From positions 62,001 to 126,000 of the forward strand of contig BPIH01000003.1 in the NCBI GenBank assembly GCA_026004015.1: a stretch of 64,000 bases of DNA, read 5' to 3'. Both the position numbers and the translations under genes were made by a program. Positions 7,846-47,535 of this stretch are shown here, piece after piece. The DNA comes from Chloroflexota bacterium (GTDB lineage Bacteria; Chloroflexota; Limnocylindria; Limnocylindrales; CSP1-4). Under the pieces are notes generated by a model. The model saw only the letters and a list, made by a program, of their open reading frames with translations. It did not search any database and was not told the DNA's origin. How positions within the stretch are numbered: position 1 is the stretch's first letter; every line of letters starts with the position of its first letter.

Positions 7846-8984
7846 TCAGCGGGGCCGGCGATAGAACGGCAGTGGGACGACCCGGGCCGGGACCCGCGTC
7901 CCGCGGATGCCGACCGCGAGCATCGTACCCGGTTCGGCGTCGCCCGGGGCGACGTAGGCCATGGCGATCGGCACCCCGAGGGTCGGCGAAAGTGCGTCCC
8001 CGACGTCACGGCGCCCGTCTCGACGGTCGCCGGCGTAGACCGGGTATGCCCGTGGCGGGCGATCCCCCGGCCCGTCGACGACGAGCCCGACCCGCCGCCG
8101 CGCCGGGCCGGCCGCGGCCACCCGCTCGAGGGCCGCCCGACCGACGAAGTCGCCGGGCTTGTCGAAGCGGACGACGTGGCCGAGTCCCGCCTCGAAGGGA
8201 TTCGTCGAGCCGGGTCGAGCTCGTTGCCGTAGAGGGGCATCCCGGCCTCGAGGCGGAGGGTGTCGCGAGCGCCCAGGCCGGCGGGGACGAGACGCCGTCT
8301 CGCGCCCGGCCTCGAGGAGCGGCGTCCCAGAGGCGACCGGATGACCTCGCCGGTGTCGACGAAGAGCTCGAAGCCGTCCTCGCCCGTGTACCCGGTCCGG
8401 GCCACGATCGCCGGGCAGGCCCGGCCACCGCGCCCTCGGCGGCGCCGTAGGAGCGGACGGCCGTCGAGGTCGAGGTCGGTGAGTGGGGCGAGGATCTCGG
8501 CGGCCCGAGGGGACCCTGGACGGCGACGAGTCCCGTGGCGAGGGTCTGGTCGTCGACGATCGCCGAGAACCCGGCGACCCGCTCCGCCAGGGCGTCGGAG
8601 ACGAGGACGGCGTTCGCCGCGTTCGCGACGACGAGGAAGCGATCCTCGGCGAGGCGGTAGACGATGAGGTCGTCGAGGACGCCCCCGTCGGGCGCGCAGA
8701 GGAGCGAGTAGCCCGCCCGACCGACCCGTAGGGCCGACGGCCACGAGACGAGGGCCCGATCGAGGGCCCGGTCCCGCCTCGGCGCCGACGACGACGATCT
8801 CGCCCATGTGGCAGAGGTCGAAGAGCCCGGCCCGCTCCCGGACGGCCCGGTGCTCGTCGAGGATCGACGCTGTACTGGAGCGGCATTCGCCAGCCGGCGA
8901 ACTCGACGAAGCGGGCCCCGAGGGCCCGGTGGCGCTCGAGGAGTGGGGTCTCGTGGGGCGCGCGGCCGTCGCCGGATCGGTCAT
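7846..8984 (-). CDS. gcvT: Glycine cleavage T protein (aminomethyltransferase), frameshifted
   Basis: Pieces in several frames: [99 protein letters not shown]; position next to gcvH. Confidence 0.8.
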
Positions 8985-8999
8985 GGGAGGCTCGGCTCC

Positions 9000-9608
9000 C
9001 GACCGCCGCCGGCGCTCAGTCCGGAGCTCCGGGTCGCGGAGCCCGGATCGAGGGGTCGCGCCGCCGGCCGCCGGTCCCTCGGCTGGCCGCGGACGTCCGG
9101 CGCCCGACTCCCGGGGTGAACCGACCCCGACCGGCTCGCGACCCCCACCGGACACCGCCGCGCCCCCGAGGCTGCCCTCCCGAAGCAGCTGGGCGACCCG
9201 AGCGACGAGCTCGCGCTCCGTTTCGAAGGTCAGGAGGCCCGGGGCCGCCTCGAGGTCGACCCAGCGGACCCGGGCGAACTCCTGGTCGTGGCGGGCAAGG
9301 TGCCCACCGCACGGTTCCATGAGGAAGTAGTGGACGGTCTTCGCGATCCGCACGTCGTCGACGGTGAAGGAATAGCGGATCGAGCCGATCGGACGCCGGA
9401 TCGCGACCTCGAGGCCCGTCTCCTCCCCGACCTCGCGGATCGCCGTCTCGGCGAGGGTCTCGCCCGGTCGCGGCGTCCCTTTCGGGAGCGTCCAGGTAAC
9501 GCCCCGCTCGCGCCGTCGCATCCCGACGACGATCTGGATCCGCCCGTCGCGAACCCGGACGACGATCCCGCCGGCGGAGGTCGCTCGTTCCTTTCTCAGG
9601 CGTGCCAC
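9000..9608 (-). CDS. NUDIX hydrolase
   Basis: Nudix box [21 protein letters not shown]-term [44 protein letters not shown]. Reads into gcvT without a stop, so the 3' end is uncertain. Confidence 0.8.
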
Positions 9609-10869
9609 GGGGCCGCCGCCGTCCGGTCGTCGCGGCCGCGGCCGGCGTTCGCCCAGTGCATCCGCACGGCGGGCCGGAGGACGCCCGACGACGGCCGCGC
9701 CACCCGCGCCGGAGTGATCGCCCGCCAGCTCGACCGCAGCGCAGCGTACGGGCTGTCGTCGCCCCGCCGGAGCACCGTCGCCCGGCTCGGGGCCGGCTGG
9801 AAGGACCCGAAGGCCCGCAGCCCGAGCTTCGGCATCCGAGCCCGGGATGCCGGGGTGATAAAGCGCGCCGGGGGACGAGCCGCGTACTTGGCGGCGATGC
9901 TGTGCTGCATAGCCGCAATCCTACCCGGGCGCCGCCGCTTTGCAAGCACCGCGCCCGACGCGGGACCGCCCGGCCCGAGCTGCCCGGCCCGGATCAGCCG
10001 CCCGACGGCAGCGGGAAGCTCGGCAGTGCCCGGGCACTCGGCAGTGCCTGGACCGGGATACGGCGGCTCGAAGGATGCGTCCCCGACCCGCTCGTCGAAG
10101 CTCGTCGCCTCGCCTTCGAACGTGCTCGTCCGAGGCACGCGTCCGGGCTACAGGAGAAGCCGTCGGGACTGAAGCAGCCGTGCGCCTGCTGCCCCGTCGC
10201 CCGGTCCTCCACCTCCCAGCAGGTCGTCGGCGACCCGGCCGACGTGCGCGGCGTGGACGGCGGAATTCGATGCCGGCAGCGCCGCCGCCGAACGTCTGCT
10301 CGAGGTAGTCCGGGAGCCAGATCATCGCCGGGAACGGACGAACGGCACGGCGCCCGCGCCCAGGCCGCCGGCACCGCGATGCACTGCGATCGGGTGAGCA
10401 CCGAGCCATCGATCGGCAGCGCGATCAGGACCCGCCGTCACCGGCGGTCGGCCGGAGTCGACGGCCCAGCGCTGCCGCCCGGTTGCCAGAAGAGCTCGAA
10501 GCCCGGCCCGGCCCTCGAACCCGCCTCCGCCCCGGTCCGGACCCGCCGGAGCATTCGTCCCGCGAATAGCTGCAGGAGGCGTGCAGCCTGCCACGAGCGG
10601 GGCGGCGGCGGCGTCGCGGCCGCACGCCGGCGTGGCGGACCCGGAGTGCTCGCGCTGGCGCCTGAAGCCGCGGCGCCCTGCCGGCAGCCGGCCACGCGCG
10701 AGCCACGCCGGGCCGCGGAGCCGCCGCCCGGGCGCAGGTGGCGACCGGCGCGGCCAGCCGGGCCCCACGAGGCCGCACGCGGGCCAGGCTCGCCGCGTGG
10801 GCCCCCTCGCCGAGCCGCTCCCGCCCCGCGCCGGACGGCCCCCCGCACCCCCGCCGGCCACCTGCCGGC

Positions 10870-11760
10870 ACTCACCCCGTCGGGCCGCCACCTCGCCGAG
10901 GACCTCCCGCAGCCGGGCCGCCCGCTCGCCGTCCAGCGCCCCTCGCCGGACCGCCACCCCGATCTCCCGCTCGGCGAGGACCCGGTAGAGCCCGACCAGC
11001 CCCGGAGCGTGCCGGCCGAGCGCCTCGAGGTGGCGCCGGAGCGTCCCGACGTCGCCCCGCACGATCGGCCCCGTCAGCGCCGCCTCGATCCCGAGGGCTC
11101 GGACGTTCGCCAGCGTCTGCTCGGCGAGCCGGCCGTAGACGGCGAGCGCGCCCGGCCTCGTCGAGACCGGCGACCCGCCCGAGCTCGACGATCCCGTCGA
11201 GGAGGCCGACGAGCCCGCCCGCCGCCAGGACGGCCGCCGCGTGGTACGCCGCCTGCGAGCCCGGCGGCAGCCGCACCGGCACCGCCCCGAGCGCCTCGGC
11301 CATCTCGGCCAGCAGCCCCGCCAGGTCCGGGTCCGCCTCGATCGCCATCGGTCGCCCCGCGGAGCGCCTCGACCGACGCGCTCCACCTCGGCGAACGCGA
11401 CGAGGGGGTGGAACGTCCCCGCCTGGGTCCCCGCCGCCCGGGCCGGCTCGAGGACCTCGGGCCCGAGGGCGCCCGAGGTGTGGACGATCGCCTGGCCGCT
11501 GTACAGCCGGAGGCTTCCCGCCAGAGCCGGCGACCGCGTCGTCGGGGACGCAGAGGACGACGAGCTCGACCTCGTCGAGGACGGCCTGGGCCTCGGCGAA
11601 GGCGCGGGCCCCACCGACGAGCTCGACGAAGCGGGCCCGCCGGCCCGGGATCCCGGCTCGCCACGGCCACGACCGGCCAGCCGGCCCGCGCGAGGGCGAC
11701 CCCGAGGGCCGTCCCGACCGGGCCGGCGCCGACGATCCCGATGAACGGCCGCTCGCCCGG
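10870..11760 (-). CDS. Rossmann-like / DUF2520 domain protein, frameshifted
   Basis: Fragments in different frames: GIVGAGPVGTALGVALARAGWPVVAVASRD, SLRLYSGQAIVHTSGALGPEVLEPARAAGTQAGTFHPLVAFAEVE, YGRLAEQTLANVRALGIEAALTGPIVRGDVGTLRRHLEAL. Confidence 0.6.
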
Positions 11761-12185
11761 CTCGCTCCGGCGGTGGGGATGGACGTGGTCGCTGGGGTGG
11801 ACGACGTCGCCGTGGCGGTGGAAGCCGGCGGGCGCGTCCGCCTCGTCGGCCCCGGCGGTTCGCCGGGCGGCTCGCTCGGCGGGCGGCAACGGGTCGAGGT
11901 CGACGCCGGCCGCCTCGAGCTCGGCGAGGGCCTCGTCGGTCGGCTCCGGCGGCTCGGGTTCGAGGGCGTCCCAGATCCTCATCGAGCGCGTCGTCGGCGA
12001 GGGACGGTCAGCGGCGTCGTCGATGCGGCCCATCGGCACCACGCCGCCGGCGACTCCGACGGGACGCGGCCGCCGACGCGGCACCGGCCCACCGCCAGCC
12101 CGGCGATTCGGCCGGCCTCGGGCCGCCGGCAGGGTACTCTTGCACCCGACGAGTGTAGCGAGCGAGGCGTTCGCCGAACCCGGAC

Positions 12186-18983: not shown

Positions 18984-19845
18984 TCAGCTTCCGCGTCGGC
19001 CGTCGCGGCGGGCGTGGAGCCGGCCGTCCGCGGCCAGCTCGAGGGTGAGCGGGACGCCGAAGGCGGCCGAGAGCATCGCCCCGCTGAGCGTCGTCCCGAC
19101 CGGCCCGGCCCCCACGATCCGCCCCGCGCGGAGCAGGACGACCCGGTCGAAGGAGGGTGGGATCTCCTCGACGTGGTGGGTGACCAGGATGATCGCCGTC
19201 GGCGCGCCGTCGCTCGCCAGCCGGTCGAGGGCGGCGACGAGCTCCTCCCGGGCCCCGAGGTCGAGACCGGCGGCCGGCTCGTCGAGGAGGAGGAGTTCCG
19301 GTTCCGGCATGAGCGCCCGGGCGATGAGGACCCGCTGGCGCTCGCCGGTCGAGAGCGTCCCGAAGGGGCGCTCGGCGAGGTGGTCGACCCCGAGCCGCGC
19401 GAGGAGCGAACGCGCCCGGTCTCGATCGGCCTCGGTCCAGGCGTGCCACCACGGTCCGAAGGCCGCGGCCCGGGCGGTGACGACGAGCTCGAGGGGCGTC
19501 AGGCGGCCGTCGAGGAGCGGCTCCAGCGCGGGGCTGGCGTGGCCGATCCGGCGCCGGAGCTCGCGGACGTCGACCCGGCCGAGGCGCTCGCCGAGGATCT
19601 CGACGCTCCCGGCCGTCGGGGCGAGCCAGCCGCCGGCGACGGCGAGGAGGGTCGTCTTCCCCGAGCCGTTGGGACCCAGGACGACCCACCGCTCGCCGGC
19701 AAGGATGGTCCAGTCGAGGGGGCCGAGGATCTGCCGTCCCGAGCGGCGGACGGCGACACCCCGGAGCGCGACGACGGGCGCCGGCTCGGGTCGTGGCTCT
19801 GGTGTCGGGGGCTCGCGGTCGTGGGCAATCGGATCGGCCGACACG
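18984..19845 (-). CDS. ABC transporter ATP-binding protein
   Basis: Walker A GPNGSGKTT, LSTGERQRVLIARALMPEPELLLLDEPAAGLD, H-loop VTHHVEEI; probable GTG start near 19845. Confidence 0.85.
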
Positions 19846-19922: not shown

Positions 19923-20095
19923 TCCTGGTCGTGAGAGGAGGACCGTCAGTGCTGACGAACGAGACCAGCTGCGTGTGACGTGTCGGCCGCTGACGAAACA
20001 CAAACCCCGAGTTCGACGAAGGCGGTCGCGTCCGCCGGAGGTCGCCCTTGACAGGCTGGGGTAACATTGATGGGCACGGGGTAAACTCCGTGGCC

Positions 20096-20530
20096 ATGGA
20101 CGAGGGAGGAGGCAGTCATGACACACACACACACACACACCGACAGGGCTTCGTCGCTGACGCGATCGCCGCAGCGGCGTGGCTTGCTCTCGCCACGGGC
20201 ATCGTCGTCGTCGCCGCCCAGCCGACCCGCGCCCTGAGCGGCAACGAGCTTCTTCTCTTCCGTGACGCGGGCAACGGTGCCCTGTATACCTACTGCGACA
20301 GCTCCTCGTCGCCATACGGGCAGCCGGTCCTGTACCTGACCCAGGCAGTCAACTCGCTCGGTGCGTACGGTTGGAACGATGTCGCCTCCGCGTACAAACA
20401 ATCCGGCGGGTGGACGCTGTACGAGAACAACAACTACAGCGGAGCGGCGCTCCAGACCGTGTACACGGGCGACTGCAACCTTGGTTCGCCCGAGAACTGG
20501 AACGATCGCGTCTCCTCTGCCGCTCCGTGA
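20096..20530 (+). CDS. Small secreted beta/gamma-crystallin-like (peptidase inhibitor I36-like) protein; start codon ambiguous
   Basis: Hydrophobic leader VADAIAAAAWLALATGIVVVAAQPTRALS, then NELLLFRDAGNGALYTYCDSS...GWNDVASAY and GGWTLYENNNYSGAALQTVYTGDCNLGSPENWNDRVSS (Greek-key style). Mature frame fits an ATG at 20096; the strong-SD ATG at 20118 is out of frame. Confidence 0.65.
   Translation: MDEGGGSHDTHTHTHRQGFVADAIAAAAWLALATGIVVVAAQPTRALSGNELLLFRDAGNGALYTYCDSSSSPYGQPVLYLTQAVNSLGAYGWNDVASAYKQSGGWTLYENNNYSGAALQTVYTGDCNLGSPENWNDRVSSAAP
20121..20140. repeat. (AC)10 dinucleotide microsatellite
   Basis: acacacacacacacacacac directly after ATG 20118-20120. Confidence 0.98.
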
Positions 20531-20548
20531 GCCCCGACGAGTGAGGCA

Positions 20549-20869
20549 TTGGTCGTCTCCCTTCGTACTCTGCGTCGACCGATCGTGCCGATCGTCCTCC
20601 TCGCGGCTCTCGGTCTGTGGCTGGCGGCACGGTCGAACCTCGAAGCCCCGTACGTCTCTTACCGGGGCGAACGTCTACCGGCTACAGAGGCAGGACGGTA
20701 CGTCTGCCACGATCTCGCCCTGCCCGAGATCCGTTGCTTCGATTCGGTCGAAGAGCTCATTCGGGATCTGGATCTCCGCTTCCCCGGGCACGCCGACCGG
20801 TTTCGCCGCCTCTGGCTCGCGACATGGCCTCCCCAACTGATACCCGAACCGGCCAACCCCCGGCCCTAG
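20549..20869 (+). CDS. Small membrane-anchored protein of unknown function
   Basis: TTG start 19 nt after the previous stop; one N-terminal hydrophobic helix ([16 protein letters not shown]), then [38 protein letters not shown]; overlaps the next CDS start. Confidence 0.5.
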
Positions 20870-21756
20870 CCGCGACACAACTCACGAAGATCTTCAAGAC
20901 CCGCTCGCGGTCGGTGGTAGCCCTGGACGACGTCACCCTCGCTGTCCCTTCGGGCGCCATCACCGGTCTCGTCGGACCGAACGGGGCGGGCAAGACGACC
21001 CTCATCCGGTGCTGGGTCGGGTTTGAGCGGCCGACCTCCGGCATTGCCCTCGTCGACGGCCGACCGGCACCGGACGGCGCGACCGATTCGGGGTGGGTGG
21101 CGTATCTCCCACAGCAAACCCGGCTTGTACCGGACGCTGTCGGCCGACGACCACCTCGTCCTGGCCCGAGCCTTGCGGCCGGGCTTCGATGCCGCCGCGG
21201 CGGCTGACTTCCTGGCACGGCGGAGCATTGAGGGCCGCCGGCCCGTCGGTCAGCTCTCGGGCGGCCAGCAGGCCCAGGTCGCCATCGCCATCGCCCTTCA
21301 CGCCGGTGCCACGACGATCCTCCTCGACGAGCCCCTGGCCAGCCTCGACCCCCTTCAGCGCGCCTACCTCTCGCGGACATCAAGGCGACCGCTGCCCGTG
21401 GTGTGACGGTTCTCGTGTCCTCCCACATCGTCGGGGATCTGGAGGGCACCATCGATCGCATCATCGTGCTCCGGTCGGGCCGCGTGATCCTGTCCGACCG
21501 GGTCGGCGATCTCCTCGATGCGCACCGAGTGGCGCCCGGGGGCGTCGTCGCCGACGGCGCCCGTCCCATCGGACCGATCCCGGGCGACGCCGAGTCGGGT
21601 GACCTGCTCTGGGCCCTTGACGCGACGGTATCCGGTCCGACCGCGGACGCCTGGCGGAGACCGACCCTGAACGAGCTCATCCTCGCCTATCTGGCCGCCG
21701 ATCTGCCCGGCGGACGTGGCAACGTCGACGGGCCGCCGATGAGGACCGGACGATGA
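20824..21756 (+). CDS. ABC transporter ATP-binding protein (frameshifted twice)
   Basis: Walker [60 protein letters not shown]; frame changes near 21121 (extra C, aaaCccggc) and 21370. Confidence 0.85.
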
Positions 21757-22690
21757 TCGAGGCGGCGAAGATCTATGTCTTCCGAACGGCCCGCCTCGAG
21801 CTCCTGCTCGCTGTGGTCGCGGTCGGGGCACTCACCGCGGCACAAGCTTGGACGGCCCTCCAGGTGGTCGGCGTCGCGCTGGATCCGGGTGTCTCCTCCA
21901 GGTCACCCAAGCCTGCGACCCGAACCTCGTCGTCCAGTACAGCTCGGCCTTCGTGAACGGCCCCATCATCCAGGCGGCCGGGCTCGGCGTCGCCGTCGGC
22001 GTGGGAACCCTCCTCGGAACGATGGCCGTCGCGAGTGAGCTGGAGTCGGGCACCGTTCAGACGGCGTGGTGGCTCGACCCGAAACGGAGCCGCTGGCTCA
22101 GGTCGCGGTTGGTCGCCTTCGGCACCGCCACCCTCGTCCTCCTCCTGGTGCTCGCCGCTACCTCACACTGGTTCGAGGCGCTCCGGCGCCCGATGTTCGA
22201 CCCCGGCGCGAGCTTCCAGGCCTACCGCTTCCGAGGGCCGGCTCTCCTCGGCGCCGGGCTCGCCGCCTTCGCGGTCGGATCCTTCGTCGGCGCCGTCGTG
22301 GGACGGACGCTGCCGTCGATGGTCATCGCCGTCGTTGTAGCGCTCGGCCTCCTCGGAGTGAGTCATGCGGTCGTCTTTCCGAACCTGGCGGAGATCGTCC
22401 CCCTCCTCTCGAGCGCCGCCGACACCCCCGACGCGATCGTTGCGAGTCGCTATCTCGATGCGTCGGGTTCGGTTCTCACGCTCGACATGGTCAAGGCCCG
22501 CTCGCCCTTCGACACCTCGAAGCAAGACTTCTGGGACTGGGCCAGCACGACCTTCCGGGAGGTTGCCGCTGGGTACGAGGGGCGTTCCTATTGGACCGTG
22601 GCACTCCGCGAGTTCGCCCTCTGGCTCGCCACCGCCGCGGCTCTCATCGGGGCCACGTGGAGCGTGGTGAGGCGTCGGCGCCCGACGTAG
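21753..22690 (+). CDS. ABC-2-type transporter permease (one frameshift)
   Basis: ATGA overlap with the ATPase; [33 protein letters not shown] then ACDPNLVVQYSSAFVNGPIIQAAGLGVAVGVGTLLGTMAVASELESGTVQTAWWLDPKRSRWL...; frame change near 21895. Confidence 0.75.

Positions 22691-45777: not shown

Positions 45778-47535
<1,758 letters not shown>

Follow-up and report, generated by a model that had tools for sequence, protein, structure and literature searches.

A dinucleotide repeat at the start codon of an exported-protein gene in an environmental Chloroflexota bacterium: a candidate frame switch

A perfect (AC)10 microsatellite directly follows a strongly Shine-Dalgarno (SD)-led ATG in a 64,000-nucleotide stretch of a Chloroflexota MAG (hereafter the window), and its unit number decides whether that ATG shares a frame with the gene of a small exported protein with a crystallin-like domain. 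The initial annotation had proposed a phase-variable switch in the OFF state. We find phase variation at this gene plausible, and put the probability of a genuine slippage-driven translational frame switch at roughly 0.43. Three points favor the switch: the tract separates a strong SD-ATG from a signal peptide, the frame logic is correct, and the arrangement recurs in Polyangiaceae, a support that was unexpected. The OFF state is not established. The anatomy of the locus, the improbability of the tract, the frame arithmetic, the promoter signature and the recurrence in another lineage are directly supported, and we infer in addition that slippage would alter the unit number n in living cells and that this alteration would have an effect. 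In the literature considered here, repeat-driven on/off switching is described mainly in host-adapted pathogens. If real, the present case would add an uncultivated environmental lineage, in which the switched product is a secreted protein, and the parallel in Polyangiaceae suggests that it would not stand alone.

The AC tract and its reading frames

The signals identified in the initial annotation were located exactly. On the + strand, the Shine-Dalgarno sequence GGGAGGAGG (20104..20112) contains AGGAGG at ideal spacing from ATG 20118 (20118..20120), the ATG with the best SD, and (AC)10 occupies 20121..20140, directly 3' of this start. Translation reproduced the 39-aa peptide expected from ATG 20118: as assembled, this frame is a 39-codon dead end (20118..20237, + strand) that stops at TGA 20235-20237 and does not share the frame of the exported protein. 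The frame of ATG 20096 (20096..20098, + strand) encodes 144 aa and spans both the signal peptide and the crystallin-like domain.

Profile and homology searches characterized this open reading frame (20096..20530, + strand) as a small exported protein with a signal-peptide-like hydrophobic segment at about 20160-20230 and a beta/gamma-crystallin-like domain. The domain matches gamma-crystallin D with E=1.4e-4 and the profile PF00030 with E=0.0017 and 18.9 bits, below the curated cut-off of 25, and we therefore describe it as weakly resembling beta/gamma crystallins rather than as a PF00030 member.

The tract is far longer than chance would produce. It is the sole run of seven or more AC units counted across the whole 1,373,175-base MAG (9 contigs, 54.75% complete), for which a first-order Markov model of the genome predicts about 1e-4 tracts of at least 7 units and 3e-9 of at least 10, and the window holds no further dinucleotide tract of 5 or more units. 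A tandem repeat beyond chance length is one hallmark of SSR contingency loci, and we infer that (AC)10 is a real microsatellite that has grown by replication slippage. A second hallmark is that changes in unit number shift the reading frame. According to the frame table, ATG 20118 is in frame with the exported protein at n=9 or 12, as the initial annotation had reasoned in stating that one AC unit fewer or two more would restore the frame. ATG 20096 is the reverse phase, in frame at n=7, 10 or 13, and neither ATG is in frame at n=8 or 11.

In the mechanism that we propose, the tract would occupy codons 2-8 of the gene, with the SD-led ATG 20118 as principal start. Whenever n is a multiple of 3, the SD start would read the export signal and the domain. 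At n=3k+1, the phase as assembled, it would yield the 39-aa dead end; some protein could still arise, by leaderless initiation, from ATG 20096 alone, a codon at or close to the 5' end predicted for the mRNA. At n=3k+2 neither start would work. The switch is favored by a tract far beyond chance that abuts the strongest SD-ATG and precedes the export signal, and by codon statistics that point to ATG 20118 as the better start. Against it stand the single known copy of the gene, the indel errors around the tract, the prospect that ATG 20096 keeps the gene on, the absence of a phasome and the presence of MutS.

Neither the MAG itself nor 106 other family members contain a further SD-ATG-(AC) locus, and hence there is no sign of a phasome. 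Among the 107 family genomes, tracts of (AC)7 or longer occur besides the window genome only in G058, where they are not placed after a start; the locus concerned (L054, G058:C7:179592-179635) is a long TG/CA dinucleotide run that does not lie directly 3' of a start codon. ATG(AC)8 was absent from the other 399 genomes of a 400-genome phylum sample, and viral contigs yielded no SD-ATG-AC locus. Loss of mismatch repair was considered and rejected: a MutS domain is present, as in most relatives, and no repair defect is predicted.

Indel errors and the assembled frame

The contig is rich in indels, and genes that must be intact carry frameshifts. Codon-model segmentation of the window found 57 same-strand frame switches, 35 of them beyond what gene overlap can explain. 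This corresponds to 6.2 non-overlap switches per 10 kb of coding sequence, compared with 2.9 elsewhere in the genome (160 kb outside the window) and 0.14-1.4 in four relatives. The essential and conserved sdhA (45781-47535, - strand) shows 16 single-base frameshifts in 1.74 kb when aligned to its G002 orthologue (75% identity, no stops); the sdhA of G004, aligned to the same sequence as a control, shows none. Closer to the tract, 0.6-1.2 kb downstream, homology reveals an ABC-transporter ATPase (20836..21756, + strand) broken by two single-base frameshifts, an extra base at ~21115 and a missing base at ~21370, which two homologues locate alike. Open reading frames and the codon model place a frame switch near 21894 in the following ABC permease (21753..22690, + strand). 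The frameshifts in sdhA, the ATPase and the permease would most simply be sequencing errors. Another stretch rich in frame switches, window 7862-11982 (- strand), is probably an assembly problem again.

These errors bear directly on the assembled phase of the gene. The indel rate near the tract is roughly 1 per kb, or about 5-10% for 70-100 nt, with an extra risk in the repeat itself. A miscounted AC tract, or a base missing between 20141 and about 20190, would alone mimic an OFF gene. Because the assembly is so rich in indels, neither the unit count of 10 nor the OFF state should be trusted. The statement in the initial annotation that this copy is OFF is thus not established, all the more since the frame is open from ATG 20096, which carries the leaderless -10 signature of the clade (TAAACT). 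When a MAG is unpolished and rich in indels, a gene that is out of frame at a repeat should not be taken to be OFF.

An assembly error could also account for the locus as a whole. The true ATG 20118 would then be in frame, owing to a different AC count or to an additional base within the stretch from the tract to about 20190, and the gene would simply be ON from its SD start, with the tract a rather stable N-terminal (Thr-His) coding repeat that plays no regulatory role. The frameshifts in sdhA and the ATPase, the excess of frame switches over the relatives and the local indel rate all speak for this, but the tract is perfect and so contains no single-base error, frame breaks are almost absent from the 15-20 kb stretch, and in the Polyangiaceae parallels described below an out-of-frame ATG is the rule (nine of nine) in genes that are otherwise intact. 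On balance we judge this explanation somewhat unlikely. Programmed frameshifting, also considered for the offset, is a reading for which we came across no evidence.

Two candidate start codons

The choice between the two starts depends in part on the promoter. A TANNNT-type -10 box, TAAACT (20082..20087, + strand), lies 8 nt upstream of ATG 20096 and 30 nt upstream of ATG 20118. A TANNNT motif next to the start is a published mark of leaderless genes (PMC3160421, PMC12340547). At gaps of 4-10 nt it precedes 35 of 194 gene starts in 480 kb of G002 and 34 of 245 in the window's own genome, and almost none of these starts also has an SD. Enrichment at gaps of 6-9 nt before gene starts is about 27-89-fold in the own genome and 20-93-fold in G002, with its peak at gaps 6-8 (up to 89-93-fold). 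SD genes of this clade show the motif 30-50 nt upstream. Among this clade's genes that are preceded by an intergenic gap, about 14-18% have leaderless-type starts, with TANNNT 6-9 nt before ATG or GTG, a share drawn from L020-L023 and L071-L090 (G002) and from the own genome.

With its gap of 8, ATG 20096 has the spacing of a leaderless start. The initial annotation had correctly noted that this codon lacks an obvious SD, but TAAACT speaks against reading this as the lack of any start signal: in clades rich in leaderless genes, a start should not be considered dead for want of a Shine-Dalgarno sequence. The same open frame also holds two non-ATG starts, GTG 20090 and TTG 20048.

Transcription might thus begin at or next to ATG 20096 as the real start, in which case GGGAGGAGG and ATG 20118 would lie inside the coding sequence, the tract would merely encode HDTHTHTH, and there would be no switch. 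The -10 box at gap 8, the frequency of such boxes in G002 and the own genome and the fact that the 20096 frame is open without any correction fit this possibility, and TA-led starts are a known leaderless signature in bacteria (PMC3160421). Codon statistics oppose it. Codons 2-7 from ATG 20096 (20099-20117) have a coding score of -4.13 nats; 0.5% of gene starts but 16% of upstream regions score this low, and so the sequence does not look coding from this start codon on. Since codon statistics mark 20099-20117 as leader rather than coding sequence, they favor ATG 20118 as the better start. The n-region read from ATG 20096 would moreover be acidic (net charge -3), and a strong SD and ATG right at the edge of the tract would have to be a coincidence. 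The -10 box is equally compatible with a 22-nt leader for ATG 20118, and the AT of ATG 20096 belongs to a palindrome around this box. We consider a leaderless ON gene without a switch unlikely; our rough weighing favors ATG 20118 as principal start and leaves room for initiation at ATG 20096.

The palindrome, found by an inverted-repeat search, is imperfect and covers 20070..20097 (ATGGGCACGG-GGTAAACT-CCGTGGCCAT), with 10-bp arms, 1 mismatch and the -10 box at its center; its right arm provides the AT of ATG 20096. Such inverted repeats are about as frequent as in random sequence (2.3 versus 1.4-2.05 per kb), but no other in the window carries TANNNT in its spacer. From its position, it is a possible operator candidate. 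A GGGGTAA direct repeat lies in the same stretch. TTGACA at 20048 was rejected as a -35 element, there being no sigma-70 pair at standard spacing, and RNA structure over the start region did not rise above shuffled sequences (z 0.53 and -0.80).

Parallels in other lineages and gene surroundings

A scan for GGAGG-N4-9-ATG-(AC)8 over 84,980 species genomes returned one further match, in a Polyangiaceae MAG (L053), where ATG(AC)15 precedes a lipoprotein signal encoded in a different frame from that of the ATG. The pattern returns in paralogues, both within this genome (G477) and in another species (G481), for a total of nine tract genes (L121/L053, L122, L124, L125 with two genes, L127, L130, L131 and L135). 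Their tracts differ in length and phase and consist of five to seventeen AC or CA units, in some cases with GC units after them; in L131 there are two shorter, four-unit runs. The ATG lies 3-17 nt before the tract, an SD is seen wherever upstream sequence is present, and a lipoprotein-type signal follows the tract. All nine tracts are out of phase with their ATG in otherwise intact genes (p 0.026 if phases were random and independent, although paralogy makes the cases dependent), and in five of the eight genes examined, the sequence ahead of the tract offers no start codon in frame. Unselected contigs of the two genomes, 520 kb in all, lack any tract of (AC)5 or longer. The proteins are cysteine-rich lipoproteins, without a Pfam match for the one scanned, and we saw no relation to the window protein.

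These genes fit a candidate family of mostly-OFF, phase-variable lipoproteins. The family is worth following up in its own right and may even be of greater interest than the window gene. With it, the SD-ATG-(AC)n architecture is seen more than once at genes for exported proteins, and faulty assembly is not needed to account for it. The window gene shares with it the SD, the ATG, the AC tract, the export signal and the out-of-frame ATG, whereas the Polyangiaceae genes belong to a different lineage and form a multigene family of cysteine-rich lipoproteins. One could go further and propose that environmental bacteria have convergently adopted SD-ATG-(AC)n before an export signal as a mostly-OFF contingency switch, both for a whole Polyangiaceae lipoprotein family and for the crystallin-like protein. 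The window gene would then add, on one and the same short mRNA, a leaderless ATG in a different frame, and would thereby have three states: SD start, leaderless start and neither. We regard this broader scheme as speculative and rather improbable.

The closest precedents are known from pathogens. In Helicobacter pylori oipA, a CT repeat in the signal-peptide region undergoes slipped-strand mispairing, and unit changes shift the frame (PMC10564699). Both oipA and the window gene thus have a dinucleotide tract near the 5' end of an exported-protein gene whose unit changes move the frame. Strain variation is demonstrated for oipA, whereas the window gene is a single sequence from an indel-rich environmental MAG, in which the tract directly follows the ATG and a second candidate start lies upstream. 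Haemophilus influenzae carries AGTC repeats just after presumptive start codons, as well as the (TA)9-11 tract of hifA/hifB (PMC2651432). The former share with the window an SSR immediately 3' of the start codon, and the latter is a dinucleotide tract of similar length, but one that works via promoter spacing and not via the reading frame. H. influenzae has many such loci with known strain variation, in contrast to the one AC tract of the window genome. With the leaderless, TA-led genes of high-GC bacteria (PMC3160421, PMC12340547), the window gene shares TANNNT about 8 nt before an ATG; unlike them, it has a second, SD-led ATG 22 nt downstream in another frame.

A scan of genome contigs and other collections found no close homologue in which units could be counted and no other genome of the same genus, and a single copy of the gene is known in the collections searched. 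The family search returned distant matches only (32-40% identity), and the AC tract was absent from every relative compared. One of these relatives, the G047 gene (L005), starts with GGAGG-6 nt-ATG.

The genes after the tract run in the order crystallin-like protein (20118/20096-20530), CHxxxYPIIRCF-type protein (20549-20869), ABC ATPase and permease. Upstream, a divergent ABC-transporter ATPase (18984..19844, - strand) has one intact frame according to open reading frames and the codon model. Comparison with relatives defined the second gene (20549..20869, + strand) as a 106-aa companion protein with a signal anchor and a CHxxxYPIIRCF-type domain. The distant relatives in the family (G038, G047, G074, G075 and G070) are single secreted proteins in which the crystallin-like domain comes second, after an N-terminal 'YxGxxI..CHxxxYPIIRCF' domain. 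Comparing window 20096-20869 with L005, L038, L040 and L041, we observed that the two domains joined in one protein in the relatives are encoded in the window by two adjacent genes, in reversed order.
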